The notes beneath the pieces are model-generated. The model was not told where the DNA came from and made no database searches. It saw only the letters and a program-made list of their open reading frames with translations. Positions 56,513 to 63,395 of a DNA stretch of 64,000 nucleotides are shown in pieces. The DNA lies in NCBI RefSeq assembly GCF_000265525.1, contig NC_018015.1:1338322-1402321 (forward strand), given 5' to 3'. The position numbers and the translations under genes were made by a program. Position 1 is the first letter of the stretch, and each line of letters begins with the position of its first letter. The stretch is from Thermococcus cleftensis (lineage in GTDB: Archaea; Methanobacteriota_B; Thermococci; Thermococcales; Thermococcaceae).

Positions 56513-56758
56513 TCACTCCTCCTCTTCCATTTCTACAACGATGGCGGTAGTGGTGTCGATAACGCCGTCGATGTTGTGAATGTCGTGGAGTATCTTTCTG
56601 GTGAGCTCGCCGAGGTCCTTCGCCTCGATGTGGACTATCGCATCGTACGGCCCAGTGACGGCGTCGGCCTTGGTGACGCCCGGAATCTGCTTGAGCGCCT
56701 CTATGACGCTCTCAACTTTTCCAATCTCAACGGTCAGTAAAACGTACGACCTAACCAT
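56513..56758 (-). CDS. Stand-alone Lrp/AsnC RAM-domain protein
   Basis: 81 residues forming only the RAM (ligand-binding) domain of Lrp/AsnC regulators: VLLTVEIGKVESVIEALKQIPGV, and DAVTGPYDAIVHIEAKD for the effector pocket. No HTH. Such stand-alone proteins form rings and bind amino acids. May modify the activity of full-length regulators such as the FL11-like protein in this window; inferred. Confidence 0.88.
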   Translation of the reverse strand: MVRSYVLLTVEIGKVESVIEALKQIPGVTKADAVTGPYDAIVHIEAKDLGELTRKILHDIHNIDGVIDTTTAIVVEMEEEE

Positions 56759-56934: not shown

Positions 56935-56983
56935 CTGCATCAACCTTAACATCTATGCCCTTAATGTACAGGGGTGGGTATTA

Positions 56984-59167
56984 ATGAAGGCTAGGACTAC
57001 AATAGCCCTGTTGGTTGTTTTTTTGGTGGCTTTTTCTGTTGTTGCCAGCGGCTGTATCGGCGGTAGCACGAGCCCAACGACCACCATCTCTCAGGGTACC
57101 TCTGAGAGCCCGAGTCAGACTACGACCTCCCAGTCGGGAACCTCCGGAGGAACCACCACCTCCAGCCAGTCGGAAACCCAGACTCAGACTCCAGCCGAGG
57201 TGAATCCGGGAATACTTGAGATGGGGGACGTGTACGTAATCGTCACTGATAAGAGCGTCGTCGTTGTCGGCCCGAAAGGTGCCAGCCCGACCGTTGAGAT
57301 ACCCAGCGACAGGAAGGTCATAAAGGTCGAGTACGAGGTCGATACTGAGAACACCCCCGACGTCCAGACCCTCATGGAGAAGGGTCAGGGGTTCGGTGCG
57401 ATTGACCCCGCATTCTTCCGCGACGAGCACGTTGATGCCCTCATCATAGCGGCAAGGCGCGAGACCGATCCGACGATTAGAACCGAGCTCTTCAAGGCCG
57501 TTTACATGCTCGGAAACAAGCTCGCCCCGGAGGTTATCCTCGGTCAGAACAAGCAGCTCCGCGTCTACTGGGACTGGGTCAAGGGCAGGTATTATCACCC
57601 GACCCTCGCGGAGCGCTACGACCTCCTGAGCGAGGACCAGAACGCTCCCTCCGTCAAGATAGGCATCAAGGACTACGAGAACGACCCCGAGACCTACACT
57701 ATCGCCACCATCGGCTGGCCGGAGAGCTTTGACCCGGCGATGACCTACGAGACCTTCGGCTGGGAGATCTGGCATGAGATAGGCGACACCCTCGTCACCT
57801 ACTGGAAGGAGAACACCGAGCAGGTCAGCCCGGACCTCGCGGTTGCGTGGGCTCACAACAAGGAGGGCACCGAGTGGTACTTCCTTATTCGCGGCGGCGT
57901 CAAGGCCTACGACCCGTGGAACGACAAGACCTACCCGATTGACGCCACAGACGTTGCCTTCACCTTCCTGCGCGTCGAGAGGCTCGGTCACTCCGTCAGC
58001 TGGATGGTCGATGGCTTCATGGACGTGAACGCCTCCCAGGCCCTCACCGAGGACGAGTTCGACCAGTACCTCAAGGAGCACCCGCTCATCGCCGAGTACA
58101 ACGGCAAGAGCACCGAGATAAAGAGCCTCGATGAGCTCAAGCAGTTCTTCGGCTACGACGGTGAGACCGCGGGAGTCTTCAAGCTCGTCCTCCCGGCACC
58201 CTACGCTCCCGTCCTCGGAATACTCGCCGACCCGTTCCTCAGCGTCGTCCCGATGGAGTACCTCCTCGGCGACAAGTACCAGGAGGCCCTCCAGGCGAGC
58301 GACAACGGCCACGACCCGAGCGCCTGGTGGAGCTACCTGAGCGAGGGCAAGAGCGACCCGACCCACCAGCTCATGCACAACAACCCGGTCGGAACCGGCC
58401 CGTTCTACGTCAAGGACTACCAGAAGGACGCCTACATAGTCCTTGAATACAACCCGTACTACTGGAACGCCACCGCCAACCCAGGCCACAAGAGGGTCAT
58501 CTACATCATAAACAGCGACGCCATGGCGAGGATAAACATCTTCAAGACCGGTACCGCCGATGTTGTCGCGATTCCGCCCGAGAAGATGGACACGGTTAAG
58601 GGCCTTGAGCTCCAGGGCTTCAAGTCAGTCGTTAAGACCGACATACTCCAGCCAATACTGACCTTCCTCGTCTTCAACACCCAGAAGGAGCCCTTCAACG
58701 ACCCGCTCGTTAGGGAGGCCCTCGCCTACGCGGTTCCGTACGACCAGATATCCCAGGTCGTTTACCAGGGGCTCCTCGAGAGGAACTACGGTCCGATACC
58801 GAAGCCGTGGCCGGGCTACACCGAGGAGGGAATAATCAAGTACACCTACAACCTCGCCAAGGCCAAGCAGCTCCTCAACCAGGCGGGCGTTGATCCGACC
58901 AAGTACAAGATAGAGCTCATCTACAACGAGGGCAACAGCGCCCGTGAGAAGATAATGACCCTCCTCCAGAACGTCTGGAGCCAGCTCGGCTTCCAGGTAA
59001 CGGTGAACAGCTACAACTGGCCGACCTACCTCGACAAGACCGAACACGGCGAGTACGACGTCTACATCGTCGGCTGGGTTCCGGACTACCTCGACTCCGA
59101 CAACTGGGTTGGCCCGTTCCTCTACGGCGCCACCGAGTTCAAGAGCCTTGAAGTCACAGTCGGCTGA
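56984..59167 (+). CDS. Opp/Dpp peptide ABC transporter substrate-binding lipoprotein, circularly permuted
   Basis: 727 residues: lipobox with Cys24 (VVASGCIGG), Ser/Thr/Gln-rich linker (about 28-70), a beta segment, then residues 143-217 (DALIIAARRETDPTIRTELF, RVYWDWVKGRYYHP) which in DppA/OppA is the C-terminal end. The canonical N-terminal start (TYTIATIGWPESFDPAM) follows at about 238, and the protein stops at 727 just after YIVGWVPDYLDSDNWVGPF, where the moved segment would normally continue. The order is thus a circular permutation. ATG 56984. It binds peptides outside the cell and delivers them to the permease encoded next. Confidence 0.9.
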   Translation: MKARTTIALLVVFLVAFSVVASGCIGGSTSPTTTISQGTSESPSQTTTSQSGTSGGTTTSSQSETQTQTPAEVNPGILEMGDVYVIVTDKSVVVVGPKGASPTVEIPSDRKVIKVEYEVDTENTPDVQTLMEKGQGFGAIDPAFFRDEHVDALIIAARRETDPTIRTELFKAVYMLGNKLAPEVILGQNKQLRVYWDWVKGRYYHPTLAERYDLLSEDQNAPSVKIGIKDYENDPETYTIATIGWPESFDPAMTYETFGWEIWHEIGDTLVTYWKENTEQVSPDLAVAWAHNKEGTEWYFLIRGGVKAYDPWNDKTYPIDATDVAFTFLRVERLGHSVSWMVDGFMDVNASQALTEDEFDQYLKEHPLIAEYNGKSTEIKSLDELKQFFGYDGETAGVFKLVLPAPYAPVLGILADPFLSVVPMEYLLGDKYQEALQASDNGHDPSAWWSYLSEGKSDPTHQLMHNNPVGTGPFYVKDYQKDAYIVLEYNPYYWNATANPGHKRVIYIINSDAMARINIFKTGTADVVAIPPEKMDTVKGLELQGFKSVVKTDILQPILTFLVFNTQKEPFNDPLVREALAYAVPYDQISQVVYQGLLERNYGPIPKPWPGYTEEGIIKYTYNLAKAKQLLNQAGVDPTKYKIELIYNEGNSAREKIMTLLQNVWSQLGFQVTVNSYNWPTYLDKTEHGEYDVYIVGWVPDYLDSDNWVGPFLYGATEFKSLEVTVG

Positions 59168-59187: not shown

Positions 59188-59239
59188 CCTTCGCTTTTTG
59201 GCCGTTGAGAGAATGCCAAAAGAAGCAGGGGGGATTGGA

Positions 59240-60241
59240 TTGGCGAATCTGAGGAAGTTCCTAATAAGAAGGCTGCTCACCTTCATACCCACCCTAATTG
59301 GGGTTACACTCATCGTTTTCCTCATCGCCTACGTTATCCCCGCCGACGTCGCCAGGGCGTGGGCCGGTGGAGAGAAGGCCAGTCAGGCGTACATGGAGCA
59401 GATAAGGAAGGAGTACCATCTGGACGAGCCGTGGTACGACCAGTACTGGTTCCTGGTGAGCGGGCTGGCGAGGAACAGCATAGTGGATCCGAGAACGTCC
59501 AACTACGTCTTCGACGACATAAGCGAGAGGTTTCCCATAACGTTTGAGCTGGCGCTGATGGCGTTCTTCTTCATACTGATAATCGGCATACCTCTCGGTA
59601 TAATCTCCGCCCTCAAGAGGAACACCTGGGTGGATACCCTCATAAGGTTCTTTGCCCTCACGGGTGTTTCCATGCCCGTTTTCTGGCTCGGCTACCTCCT
59701 CATCTACGTGTTCTTCGTCAAGGTTCACTGGATAACGCTCGCCGGCTTCCCGGCTCCCCCGGAGCACCAGATAACTCACATACCTATGATAGACGCCCTG
59801 CTGACGGGCGACTTTGATACCTTCAGCCAGCACATTCACAGGCTCTGGCTCCCCGGATTCACGCTGGGCTTCATGGGAGCTGGTGTTCTGGCGAGGTTCG
59901 TCAGGAACAGCTTCCTTGAGGCCATAGGAAGCGACTACGTGGGATTCCTCAAGGCCAAGGGTGTTCCGAAGAGGGGCATCTACCGCCACGCCCTCAAGAA
60001 CGCGATGGTGCCGATAGTTACCGTTCTCGGCCTCCAGTTCGGCGGCCTCCTCGGCGGAACTCCGATCACCGAGACGGTGTTTGGCCTGCCCGGAATGGGT
60101 TCCTACGTCATCGAATCCATCAGGAACCTCGACTTCCCTGCGGTCGTGGCGATAACCATGGTCTTCGCCCTGATATTCCTCATAACGAACCTCGTCGTGG
60201 ACATACTCTACGCCCTGATAGACCCGAGGGTGAGGTACTAA
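59240..60241 (+). CDS. Peptide ABC transporter permease (OppB/DppB type)
   Basis: 333 residues with six membrane segments. N-terminal NLRKFLIRRLLTFIPTLIGVT is typical of DppB; the EAA loop EAIGSDYVGFLKAKGVPKRGIYRHALKN contacts the ATPases. TTG 59240 is chosen because GGGGGG lies six bases upstream; ATG 59213 would add nine residues without a good site. Followed by the second permease after 15 bases. Confidence 0.9.
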   Translation: MANLRKFLIRRLLTFIPTLIGVTLIVFLIAYVIPADVARAWAGGEKASQAYMEQIRKEYHLDEPWYDQYWFLVSGLARNSIVDPRTSNYVFDDISERFPITFELALMAFFFILIIGIPLGIISALKRNTWVDTLIRFFALTGVSMPVFWLGYLLIYVFFVKVHWITLAGFPAPPEHQITHIPMIDALLTGDFDTFSQHIHRLWLPGFTLGFMGAGVLARFVRNSFLEAIGSDYVGFLKAKGVPKRGIYRHALKNAMVPIVTVLGLQFGGLLGGTPITETVFGLPGMGSYVIESIRNLDFPAVVAITMVFALIFLITNLVVDILYALIDPRVRY

Positions 60242-60256: not shown

Positions 60257-61432
60257 ATGGGAAGGGAAGAGTATAAGAAGAACGTTCTCGATAAGCTCTC
60301 CGATGCCTTTGTTGAGGCACTTGGTTCTTTCATCAGCCTCTTCAAGAAGGACTGGAAGAGGAAGAACCGCTCCAAGATGGAAGAGTGGAAGCTTATGCTC
60401 TACGCCCTGAACCGCTCGCCCCCCGGCCTTATAGGCCTCGCCCTCGTGCTGATGTTCGTGTTCCTCGGCCTCTTCGGCCCCAGCCTTGCGCCCTGGAGCT
60501 ACCGCTTCTTCCCGACCAACTACAACTTCGAAACCTACCTCGCCCCGCCGGGTTCAACATACACGCTCAACGTAACAGAGCTTAGGGGAGACGTTATCCT
60601 GCAGTACACCGCCACCATACACTACACCCTCGGTGCTGACCACTACGGAAGGGACCTCCTCAGCCTGATACTCTACGGAGCCAGGGTCTCGTTCGTTATC
60701 TCAATCATAGTCATAGCCCTCGGCGTTCCCTTGGGCATAATCCTGGGCCTCATAGCGGGCTACTACGGCGGCAAGGTGGACGAGCTGGTTATGCGCATCA
60801 CCGATGTCTTCCTGGCATTTCCGGCGCTCATACTGGCCATAGCGTTCTCCGCGGTGTTGCCGCAGAGACTGCAGAACTTCATATCCTCCCACGAGACCGT
60901 CCAGAGCTTCGTGCTGTGGCTCTTCGCGCTCGAACCCCAGGACGCTGGTAACCTCGGAAAGCTCCTCGCCGTCATACTGGCCATGATTATCGTCTGGTGG
61001 CCGGCCTATGCAAGAATCACGCGCGGTTCAACTCTCACCGAGAGGGAGAACCTCTACGTCGAGGCGGCGAGAGCGATAGGACTCAGCTCAAGGACGATAA
61101 TGTTCAAGCACATTCTCCCCAACATCATCGGCCCGATACTCGTCTACATCACCCTCGACTTCGGTGGAGTGATACTCATGGAAGCCGGCCTGAGCTTCCT
61201 CGGTCTCGGTGCCACTCCCCCGATAGCCGACTGGGGAAGGATAGTCTACGACGGCTCCCAGTACTTCCCGGAGAAGTGGTGGCTGGTCACCTTCTCAGGC
61301 CTGATGATTATGCTTGTCGCCCTCGGCTGGAACCTGCTCGGCGACACCATGAGGGACATCCTCGATCCGAAGACGAGGAGGAGCATAGAGTTCAAGGTCA
61401 AGAAGAGCAAGGAGGGTGAGAGCAATGCCTGA
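60257..61432 (+). CDS. Peptide ABC transporter permease (OppC/DppC type)
   Basis: 391 residues: longer cytoplasmic N-terminus (about 50 charged residues), then six membrane segments with an inserted extracellular loop. EAARAIGLSSRTIMFKHILPNI is the EAA loop. ADHYGRDLLSLILYGAR is the OppC signature. ATG 60257 follows GGGGTGG. It overlaps the first ATPase gene by 8 bases. Confidence 0.95.
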   Translation: MGREEYKKNVLDKLSDAFVEALGSFISLFKKDWKRKNRSKMEEWKLMLYALNRSPPGLIGLALVLMFVFLGLFGPSLAPWSYRFFPTNYNFETYLAPPGSTYTLNVTELRGDVILQYTATIHYTLGADHYGRDLLSLILYGARVSFVISIIVIALGVPLGIILGLIAGYYGGKVDELVMRITDVFLAFPALILAIAFSAVLPQRLQNFISSHETVQSFVLWLFALEPQDAGNLGKLLAVILAMIIVWWPAYARITRGSTLTERENLYVEAARAIGLSSRTIMFKHILPNIIGPILVYITLDFGGVILMEAGLSFLGLGATPPIADWGRIVYDGSQYFPEKWWLVTFSGLMIMLVALGWNLLGDTMRDILDPKTRRSIEFKVKKSKEGESNA

Positions 61433-62405
61433 TCCTATCCTTGAGGTTAGGGACTTGACAGTCCACTTCTACACTTACGCGGGCATAGTCAAGGCCATTG
61501 AGAGGGTTTCCTTCGACGTTTACCGCGGGGAAACCTTCGCCCTCGTCGGAGAAACCGGCTGTGGAAAGAGCGTCACCTCCAGGGCATTAACCCAGCTCAT
61601 CGAGAGTCCGGGAAGGATAGTCGAGGGAAGCGTGGTTTACCACCGTGAGGACGGCTCGACCGTGGACCTGCTGAAGCTCTCCCCTGAGGAGATACGCGAC
61701 ATTCGCGGCAAGGAGATAGCCTACATCTTTCAGGACCCCCACGCGTCGCTCGACCCGCTCTACACTGTCGGCTACCAGATAGCCGAGGCGATGGTCGTCC
61801 ACGACACCGTCAAGGACTGGAAGGAGGGCTTCAGAAGAGCGGTGGACATACTCAGGCGCGTCCTCATTCCAGACCCCGAGAACAGGGTGAAGAACTACCC
61901 CCACGAGATGAGCGGAGGAATGAAGCAGCGCGTTGTCATAGGAATAGGCGTCTCCAACAACCCCAAGATACTCATCGCCGACGAGCCGACCACCGCTTTA
62001 GACGTCACAGTCCAGGCCCAGATACTTGACCTCATGAACAAGCTCAAGGAGGAGTACAACACCACGGTCATACTCATCACCCACAACATGGGCGTCGTTG
62101 CGGAGATGGCCGACCGCGTTGCGGTCATGTACGCGGGCAAAATAGTCGAGATAGGCTCCGTCGAGCAGATATTCAAGAACCCGCTCCACCCTTACACCCA
62201 GGGCCTCCTCAGAGCTGTTCCAAACCCCCTCGGCAGAATAGACAGGCTGGAAACGATACCCGGAACGGTTCCGAACCTCATAGAGCCCCCAGGCGGCTGC
62301 CGCTTCCACCCGAGGTGCCCGAAGGCGAGGGGGATATGCAGGGAGAAGGTTCCCGAGCTGAAGGAGATTGAACCCGGCCACTTCGTGGCCTGCCACCTGT
62401 ACTGA
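61425..62405 (+). CDS. Peptide ABC transporter ATP-binding protein (OppD/DppD type)
   Basis: 326 residues: Walker A GETGCGKSV, signature MSGGMKQRV, Walker B ILIADEPTTAL, switch His in ITHNMG. The C-terminal oligopeptide/dipeptide extension carries [16 protein letters not shown] with Cys ligands of a [4Fe-4S]-like site as in other OppD proteins. ATG 61425 follows GAGGGTGAG, within the end of oppC. Confidence 0.96.
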   Translation: MPDPILEVRDLTVHFYTYAGIVKAIERVSFDVYRGETFALVGETGCGKSVTSRALTQLIESPGRIVEGSVVYHREDGSTVDLLKLSPEEIRDIRGKEIAYIFQDPHASLDPLYTVGYQIAEAMVVHDTVKDWKEGFRRAVDILRRVLIPDPENRVKNYPHEMSGGMKQRVVIGIGVSNNPKILIADEPTTALDVTVQAQILDLMNKLKEEYNTTVILITHNMGVVAEMADRVAVMYAGKIVEIGSVEQIFKNPLHPYTQGLLRAVPNPLGRIDRLETIPGTVPNLIEPPGGCRFHPRCPKARGICREKVPELKEIEPGHFVACHLY

Positions 62406-62414
62406 GGTGATAGC

Positions 62415-63395
62415 ATGAGCGAGCCGATACTCGAGGTTAAGAGCCTCAAGAAGTACTTCCCCATTAGGGGGCTCTTCAGAACAGAGGGCTACGTTAAAGC
62501 GGTCGATGACGTCAGCTTCACGATAAACCGGGGCGAAACCTTCGGTCTCGTTGGGGAGAGCGGCTGTGGCAAAACCACCACGGGAAGAACAATCCTCCGC
62601 CTCATAGAGCCGACCGACGGTCAAATCATCTTCCAGGGAAAGGACGTCACGAAGCTTAAGGGCGAGGAGATGAAGTGGTTCAGGCGAAAGGCCCAGATAA
62701 TGTTCCAGGATCCGTACTCTTCGCTCAACCCCAGGCAGACCGTCTTTGAGGTCATCATGGAGCCCGTCAAGTTCCACGGCATAGAGGTCGATGACCCTGA
62801 GGATTTCGTGATAAAACTCCTCGAGAGCGTCGGTCTCAACGAGATGCACCTCTACCGCTACCCCCACGAGTTCTCCGGCGGGCAGAGACAGCGCATAGCC
62901 CTGGCGAGGCTCCTCGCGCTCAGGCCGGAGTTCATAGTCCTCGACGAGCCGACCTCAGCGCTCGACGTCTCGGTTCAGGCCAACATTCTCAACACGCTGA
63001 AGGACCTCCAGAGGCAGTACGGCTTCACCTACCTCTTCATAAGCCACGACCTTGGAGTCGTTAAGTACATGAGCCACAGAATGGGAGTGATGTACCTCGG
63101 AAAGCTCGTGGAGGTCGGTCCGGCGGAGAAGATATTCGAGAATCCCCTCCACCCCTACACCAAGTTCCTGCTGTCGGCCATTCCCGTTCCCGACCCTGAC
63201 CTGGCCAGGGAGCTCAAGGAGGAGCGCATGAAGGTTGAAGGAGAGCCGCCAAGCCCGATAAATCCGCCCAGGGGCTGCCGCTTCCACCCGAGGTGCCCCT
63301 TCGCCAAGGCCGGCCTCTGCGACGCGAAGGAGCCTCCTCTCGTCGAGGTGGAGAGGGACCACTACGTCGCCTGCTGGCTCTACGCTAAGGCCTGA
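62415..63395 (+). CDS. Peptide ABC transporter ATP-binding protein (OppF/DppF type)
   Basis: 326 residues: Walker [10 protein letters not shown], signature [10 protein letters not shown], Walker [12 protein letters not shown], switch His ISHDLG, C-terminal [17 protein letters not shown] extension. ATG 62415 follows GAGGTGATAG, 9 bases after oppD. Last gene of the operon; its end overlaps the convergent gene by 11 bases. Confidence 0.96.

Follow-up and report, generated by a model that had tools for sequence, protein, structure and literature searches.

Most natural circular permutations are inferred from single events in the distant past, which makes it hard to test how they arise and whether they are selected. 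The nearest conceptual precedent for the protein described here is Tp0684 (TpMglB-2) of Treponema pallidum, a circularly permuted glucose-binding lipoprotein whose authors also proposed a link to tethering (PMC4990184). TpMglB-2 is bacterial, has a Type I (cluster B) sugar-binding fold, and was reported as a single permuted subclass. DNA methyltransferases also present one fold in several cyclic orders, in classes that are old and diverged. E. coli DppA and OppA are family-5 (cluster C, PF00496) solute-binding proteins, and the structure of an archaeal OppA is available as PDB 7fi3 (Yokoyama et al. 2022, cited in PMC12136057), which we take to be from Thermococcus kodakarensis. The literature we searched, mostly open-access, contained no report of permuted family-5/cluster C binding proteins in archaea or of repeated permutation of archaeal receptors, although such absence remains unproven.

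We analyzed a stretch of 64,000 nucleotides from Thermococcus cleftensis (NC_018015.1, positions 1,338,322 to 1,402,321; hereafter the window), which contains a complete gene for a putative peptide-binding lipoprotein (56984-59167, plus strand, supported by its ORF, Pfam and relatives) that is a natural circular permutant of the DppA/OppA family-5 solute-binding fold. In its 727-residue translation an ASGC lipobox and a Ser/Thr-rich linker precede a long globular region; all coordinates that follow are on the plus strand unless stated. The signal peptide and lipobox, a predicted lipid anchor, occupy residues 1-24 (56984-57055) and the Ser/Thr-rich linker residues 25-79 (57056-57220). An insert recognized by comparison with relatives (residues 80-136; 57221-57391) begins the moved block, and is followed by the canonical C-terminal segment of the fold, identified by hhalign and now at the front (residues 143-217; 57410-57634). 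A linker from the old C-terminus to the old N-terminus (residues 218-235; 57635-57688), evident in the sequence and in the rotated alignment, leads into the canonical N-terminal part (residues 236-497; 57689-58474), with DppA residue 28 onward aligning from residue 235. Residues 498-501 (58475-58486) mark the site at which some relatives are cut, and the middle, lobe II part defined by relatives and the rotated alignment (residues 502-727; 58487-59164) completes the protein, whose chain stops where the moved segment would come next.

The transporter genes downstream are those of an ordinary Dpp/Opp importer operon: two permeases, DppB/OppB-like (59198-60241; Pfam BPD_transp_1 and BPD_transp_1_N; the listed TTG start is uncertain) and DppC/OppC-like (60257-61432; BPD_transp_1 and OppC_N), and two ATPases, DppD/OppD-like (61416-62405) and DppF/OppF-like (62415-63395), both with ABC_tran and oligo_HPY domains. 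This set is kept in relatives, and a conserved upstream neighbor encoding an Lrp/AsnC ligand-binding-domain protein (56513-56758, minus strand; Pfam AsnC_trans_reg) serves as a synteny marker. From family and operon, and without binding data, the gene product is predicted to be the lipid-anchored peptide receptor of this ABC importer, which would capture peptides and pass them to the transporter. A 502-codon open frame also runs antisense to the gene (56981-58489, minus strand); it resembles a by-product of codon usage, and we have no evidence that it is a gene.

Linear searches see the fold only in pieces. The Pfam SBP_bac_5 (PF00496) match is strong (232.6 bits against a curated cut-off of 32.4) and spans only residues 281-716, while phmmer against the PDB places residues 238-331 on DppA 31-125, 461-710 on 200-445, and 152-218 on 469-535, with the order of the pieces swapped. 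The last of these matches is weak taken alone, at 3.8 bits with phmmer and 9.6 bits with a 29-sequence profile, and would be expected if the protein were not permuted at all and had instead lost the C-terminal segment while acquiring an unrelated domain at its N-terminus. Because single-sequence phmmer was too weak for the moved segment in both native and rotated form, we turned to profiles, aligning non-redundant relatives over residues 80-218 (62 rows before gap filtering) to a canonical profile of 31 sequences comprising E. coli DppA and OppA and 29 Thermococcales DppA-like proteins. The 80-218 profile aligned to the canonical C-terminal columns over 79 columns (hhalign score 64.5, E 9.5e-9), and 200 column-shuffled versions of it scored no more than 30.4. 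This shuffle-controlled match at the right place, together with relatives that carry residues 80-136 and the moved segment after residue 726, all but excludes loss plus gain.

Rotation to canonical order restores a single alignment. In native order the family gives two separate matches to the canonical profile; once rotated it gives one match of 473-490 columns, the score rising from 468 to 545, and is collinear with DppA 28-533 in one alignment of 490 columns at 28% identity. In this alignment D436 of DppA, which contacts the dipeptide in the E. coli protein (PMC12136057), falls on D701 of the window protein; the equivalent of DppA R383 lies in an unaligned loop. A whole-genome search for a second copy of the C-terminal segment found none, with weak matches only to the signal and linker region. 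The window protein therefore lacks the canonical N-to-C segment order of family-5 proteins and has the properties of a natural circular permutant, with both parts homologous, their order swapped, and no duplicate remnant; we class it as a permuted homolog of family-5 solute-binding proteins and not as a canonical member. An assembly or annotation artifact is likewise all but excluded, as uninterrupted ORFs of the same order occur in dozens of independent genomes, many of them single-contig chromosomes, and we found nothing in support of one.

Predicted structures agree with the alignments. AlphaFold models of the window protein (pLDDT 91.4, pTM 0.84) and of a relative cut elsewhere, the order-B ortholog L113 described below (pLDDT 91.3, pTM 0.87), have the same DSSP secondary structure at 95% of positions in cyclic register; within the moved block agreement is 93.5%, against at most 44% in shifted registers. 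Against DppA, Foldseek aligns about 490-516 columns of the window model with E 1.1e-25 and TMt 0.5-0.68; it matches the order-B model to DppA-type structures over about 370 columns. Coverage is partial because Foldseek is a sequential aligner, which also means that it cannot by itself demonstrate permutation.

An earlier sequence-only reading had proposed that this lipoprotein is circularly permuted, and its central claims held: the permutation is supported by the profile alignment and shuffles, by re-ordered orthologs at up to 83% identity after rotation, by synteny, and by the two AlphaFold models. Its assignments of residues 143-217 to bases 57410-57634 and of residues 236-727 to bases 57689-59164 were exact, alignment confirmed 143-217 as the canonical C-terminus, and the claim that no leftover C-terminal copy follows position 59167 extends to the whole genome. 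The moved block is larger than that reading claimed, beginning at about residue 80, because in relatives the 57-residue insert 80-136 sits between residues 726 and 137. Its further proposals, that the termini lie close together in lobe I and that the lipid anchor is shifted, remain inference, since the three-dimensional place of the moved segment was judged only from sequence, DSSP strings and Foldseek, without coordinate superposition.

Compared with E. coli DppA and OppA, the window protein has the same fold and operon context and can be aligned over its whole length after rotation, but its chain is cyclically re-ordered, it carries the insert 80-136, and its lipobox and Ser/Thr linker attach at a different point. 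It resembles TpMglB-2 in being a natural permutant of a membrane-tethered ABC solute-binding protein. It does not share the Type I fold of TpMglB-2, being of cluster C by Pfam and Foldseek, and its family, in contrast to the bacterial one, is archaeal, with several cuts and with differing orders at one orthologous locus.

Those several cuts became apparent from 96 full-length relatives, drawn from Thermococcales, Thermoproteia and one Thermoplasmata bin. All 96 share one cyclic order of segments and differ only in where the chain starts, a result shown directly by their sequences; non-cyclic orders were not seen among them. Most (61) have the order of the window protein, A, in which the chain ends at residue 726 in window numbering; 28 have order B, starting at 502 and ending at 497; six have order C, starting at about 137 with the 75-105 hairpin carried at the chain end; and a single protein, B2, is cut at 545/546. 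The canonical cut position is unused among the family members that we found. The 29 Thermococcales DppA-like proteins served as an internal control, and all were collinear with E. coli DppA. The B2 protein (L010) is a Thermococcales-like member of the family with a unique cut, on a contig binned as Thermoplasmata, and it is possible that this bin is contaminated.

The ring closes in relatives that are cut elsewhere. When an order-B protein was doubled to close its ring, the rotated window protein matched it at 1030 bits at best, compared with 568 for the single copy, and an order-A protein and an order-B protein of another genus are 83% identical after rotation. In order B, residue 726 continues through a short joint into residue 80, and residues 80-136 therefore belong after 726 in the ring; they are joined to 726 in relatives cut elsewhere, and the order-C cut falls inside them. 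The Ser/Thr-rich linker is found in every cut form irrespective of the core segment that follows it, and order-B cores of a sister genus are preceded by the signal peptide type of the window protein. The joint helix is C-terminal in Thermoproteia A proteins and N-terminal in one Thermococcus A group (L115, L117), a difference suggesting more than one origin of the A cut. Apparently broken copies of the window gene, with in-frame stops or a split frame, occur in three other Thermococcales genomes (G028, C1:410994-411826; G078, C1:841293-841844; G015, C1:884848-886859).

Order B occupies the orthologous operon position in three genomes of the sister genus (G001-G003), among them a single-contig chromosome. 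Two have full flanks with the same neighbors as in the window, namely trmI-like, DUF257, a small protein and Lrp on one side, and permeases B and C, ATPases D and F and the ortholog of the gene at 63385 on the other; the third matches in gene order up to its contig end. The synteny of differently ordered receptors is thus shown. In quick trees built from rotated sequences the sister-genus B proteins nest among Thermococcales A proteins; a grouping of 13 A proteins without them is rejected (AU p 0.005), as are A and B as single clades (AU p 3e-41 and 2e-77, respectively), and the family needs at least five order changes. Close relatives are rotated differently, even at one locus, and permutation, usually regarded as a rare event, has therefore been repeated in this protein family: it is recurrent and not one event.

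One alternative is that one or two old permutations occurred and that the orders were then mixed as the ancient A and B lineages recombined or passed genes laterally. Orders A and B each occur in both Thermoproteia and Thermococcales, and sister-genus B proteins have a joint helix like the one in Thermoproteia B proteins, both as this alternative would have it. We consider it unlikely, as the sister-genus B genes lie at the orthologous locus and nest in Thermococcales A across the whole core, so that an imported B gene would have needed full conversion to the local sequence with its order kept; moreover B2 and C are further cuts, and a second family has a cut set of its own. Recurrent permutation remains our reading, with the direction of each order change unsettled. 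When canonical outgroups are included, B falls as a grade at the base of the A/B group, but the root is unsure because the outgroup branches are long, and the joint-helix likeness leaves retention of B with repeated gain of A a possibility.

The second family is represented in this genome by its sole other family-5 protein found, L019 (C1:880409-882823, minus strand, 805 residues), a relative of 7fi3, which is itself a canonical-order member. L019 matches 7fi3 in two swapped pieces (498 bits in total), is cut at a site, T1, different from that of the window protein, and ends in a C-terminal hydrophobic helix or membrane anchor. Across Thermococcales this family shows the canonical order and four other cuts (T1-T4), with T1 proteins 76% identical to T2 and 74% identical to T3 after rotation. 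It requires at least seven order changes, and T1, T2 and T3 are each rejected as clades, although some branches are long; T1 and T2 paralogs are both present in one genome (G014). The T3 cut maps by profile alignment to window residue 498, the B cut, and one site has therefore been used in both families. The likeness of the A cut to the T2 cut rests on motif only, as the profile alignment stops short of T2. The survey thus carries the sequence-only reading further, to recurrent permutation with several cut sites in two families.

We suggest that these are ordinary Dpp/Opp peptide receptors that have repeatedly been re-cut, an explanation we regard as very likely as a whole, with permutation and recurrence shown and the mechanism inferred. 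In the window protein the old C-terminal block (residues 80-217) comes first, then a short linker and the normal N-terminus, with the chain ending at the lobe II to lobe I crossing. The family acts like a closed ring opened in evolution at A, B, B2 and C, with the signal peptide, linker and transporter genes fixed while the core rotated. The likely route, which is inferred only, is that the core was duplicated in tandem and fused in frame, after which one copy lost its front and the other its back; this would explain why the orders are strictly cyclic and why the signal peptide stays in place. A precedent for duplication and fusion exists, but in the second family: L132 (2403-8633), an ORF of 2077 residues with two in-frame fused cores that are 59% identical and further C-terminal domains, is possibly a protein at the duplication stage. 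In the family of the window protein itself we found neither a duplicated nor a half-truncated intermediate.

A rival route, which remains possible, is intragenic rearrangement or segmental cut-and-paste, for instance by recombination between signal or linker repeats, without duplication and truncation of the whole core. In its favor, the signal peptide and the repetitive Thr/Pro/Ser codons of the linker are kept while the core rotates, and in the second family L126 (1222-3651) has a T2 core flanked by a T1-type signal peptide and C-terminal anchor. Against it, an in-frame fused double copy exists in the second family, and cut-and-paste predicts non-cyclic orders as well, none of which was seen, while strict cyclicity is the outcome of duplication and truncation. 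Duplication followed by truncation therefore remains our preferred route.

Rotation would leave the lobes intact and peptide binding retained, although this unchanged function is inferred. Its main consequence, also inferred, is likely that the membrane tether exits the receptor elsewhere: judged from general placement on the DppA fold, order A would put the exit close to where the chain crosses from lobe II to lobe I, and order B close to the crossing from lobe I to lobe II. A bolder reading, toward which the balance tilts slightly, is that genes for archaeal family-5 receptors evolve by permutation often and still do so, possibly under selection for shifting the membrane tether relative to the transporter; it rests on at least 12 order changes (minima of 5 and 7 on quick trees) across two families that share genomes, some of them at a shared structural site.

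Several orders of one surface receptor thus coexist, at 75-83% identity, in contrast to the old and diverged classes of DNA methyltransferases, with different orders at an orthologous locus and a double copy in the sister family. This natural series allows direct tests of the duplication-truncation route, of cut-site choice, and of tether position in ABC import. It also indicates that linear profile searches under-annotate permuted receptors, of which Pfam detects only the middle part. Among members of the second family, L144, L124 and L125 have extra C-terminal domains ending in GDTSGFSAGDxIxIVA. Giant Thermococcales ORFs (L134, 2875 residues; L137, at least 2090 residues) hold diverged family-5 cores among other domains.
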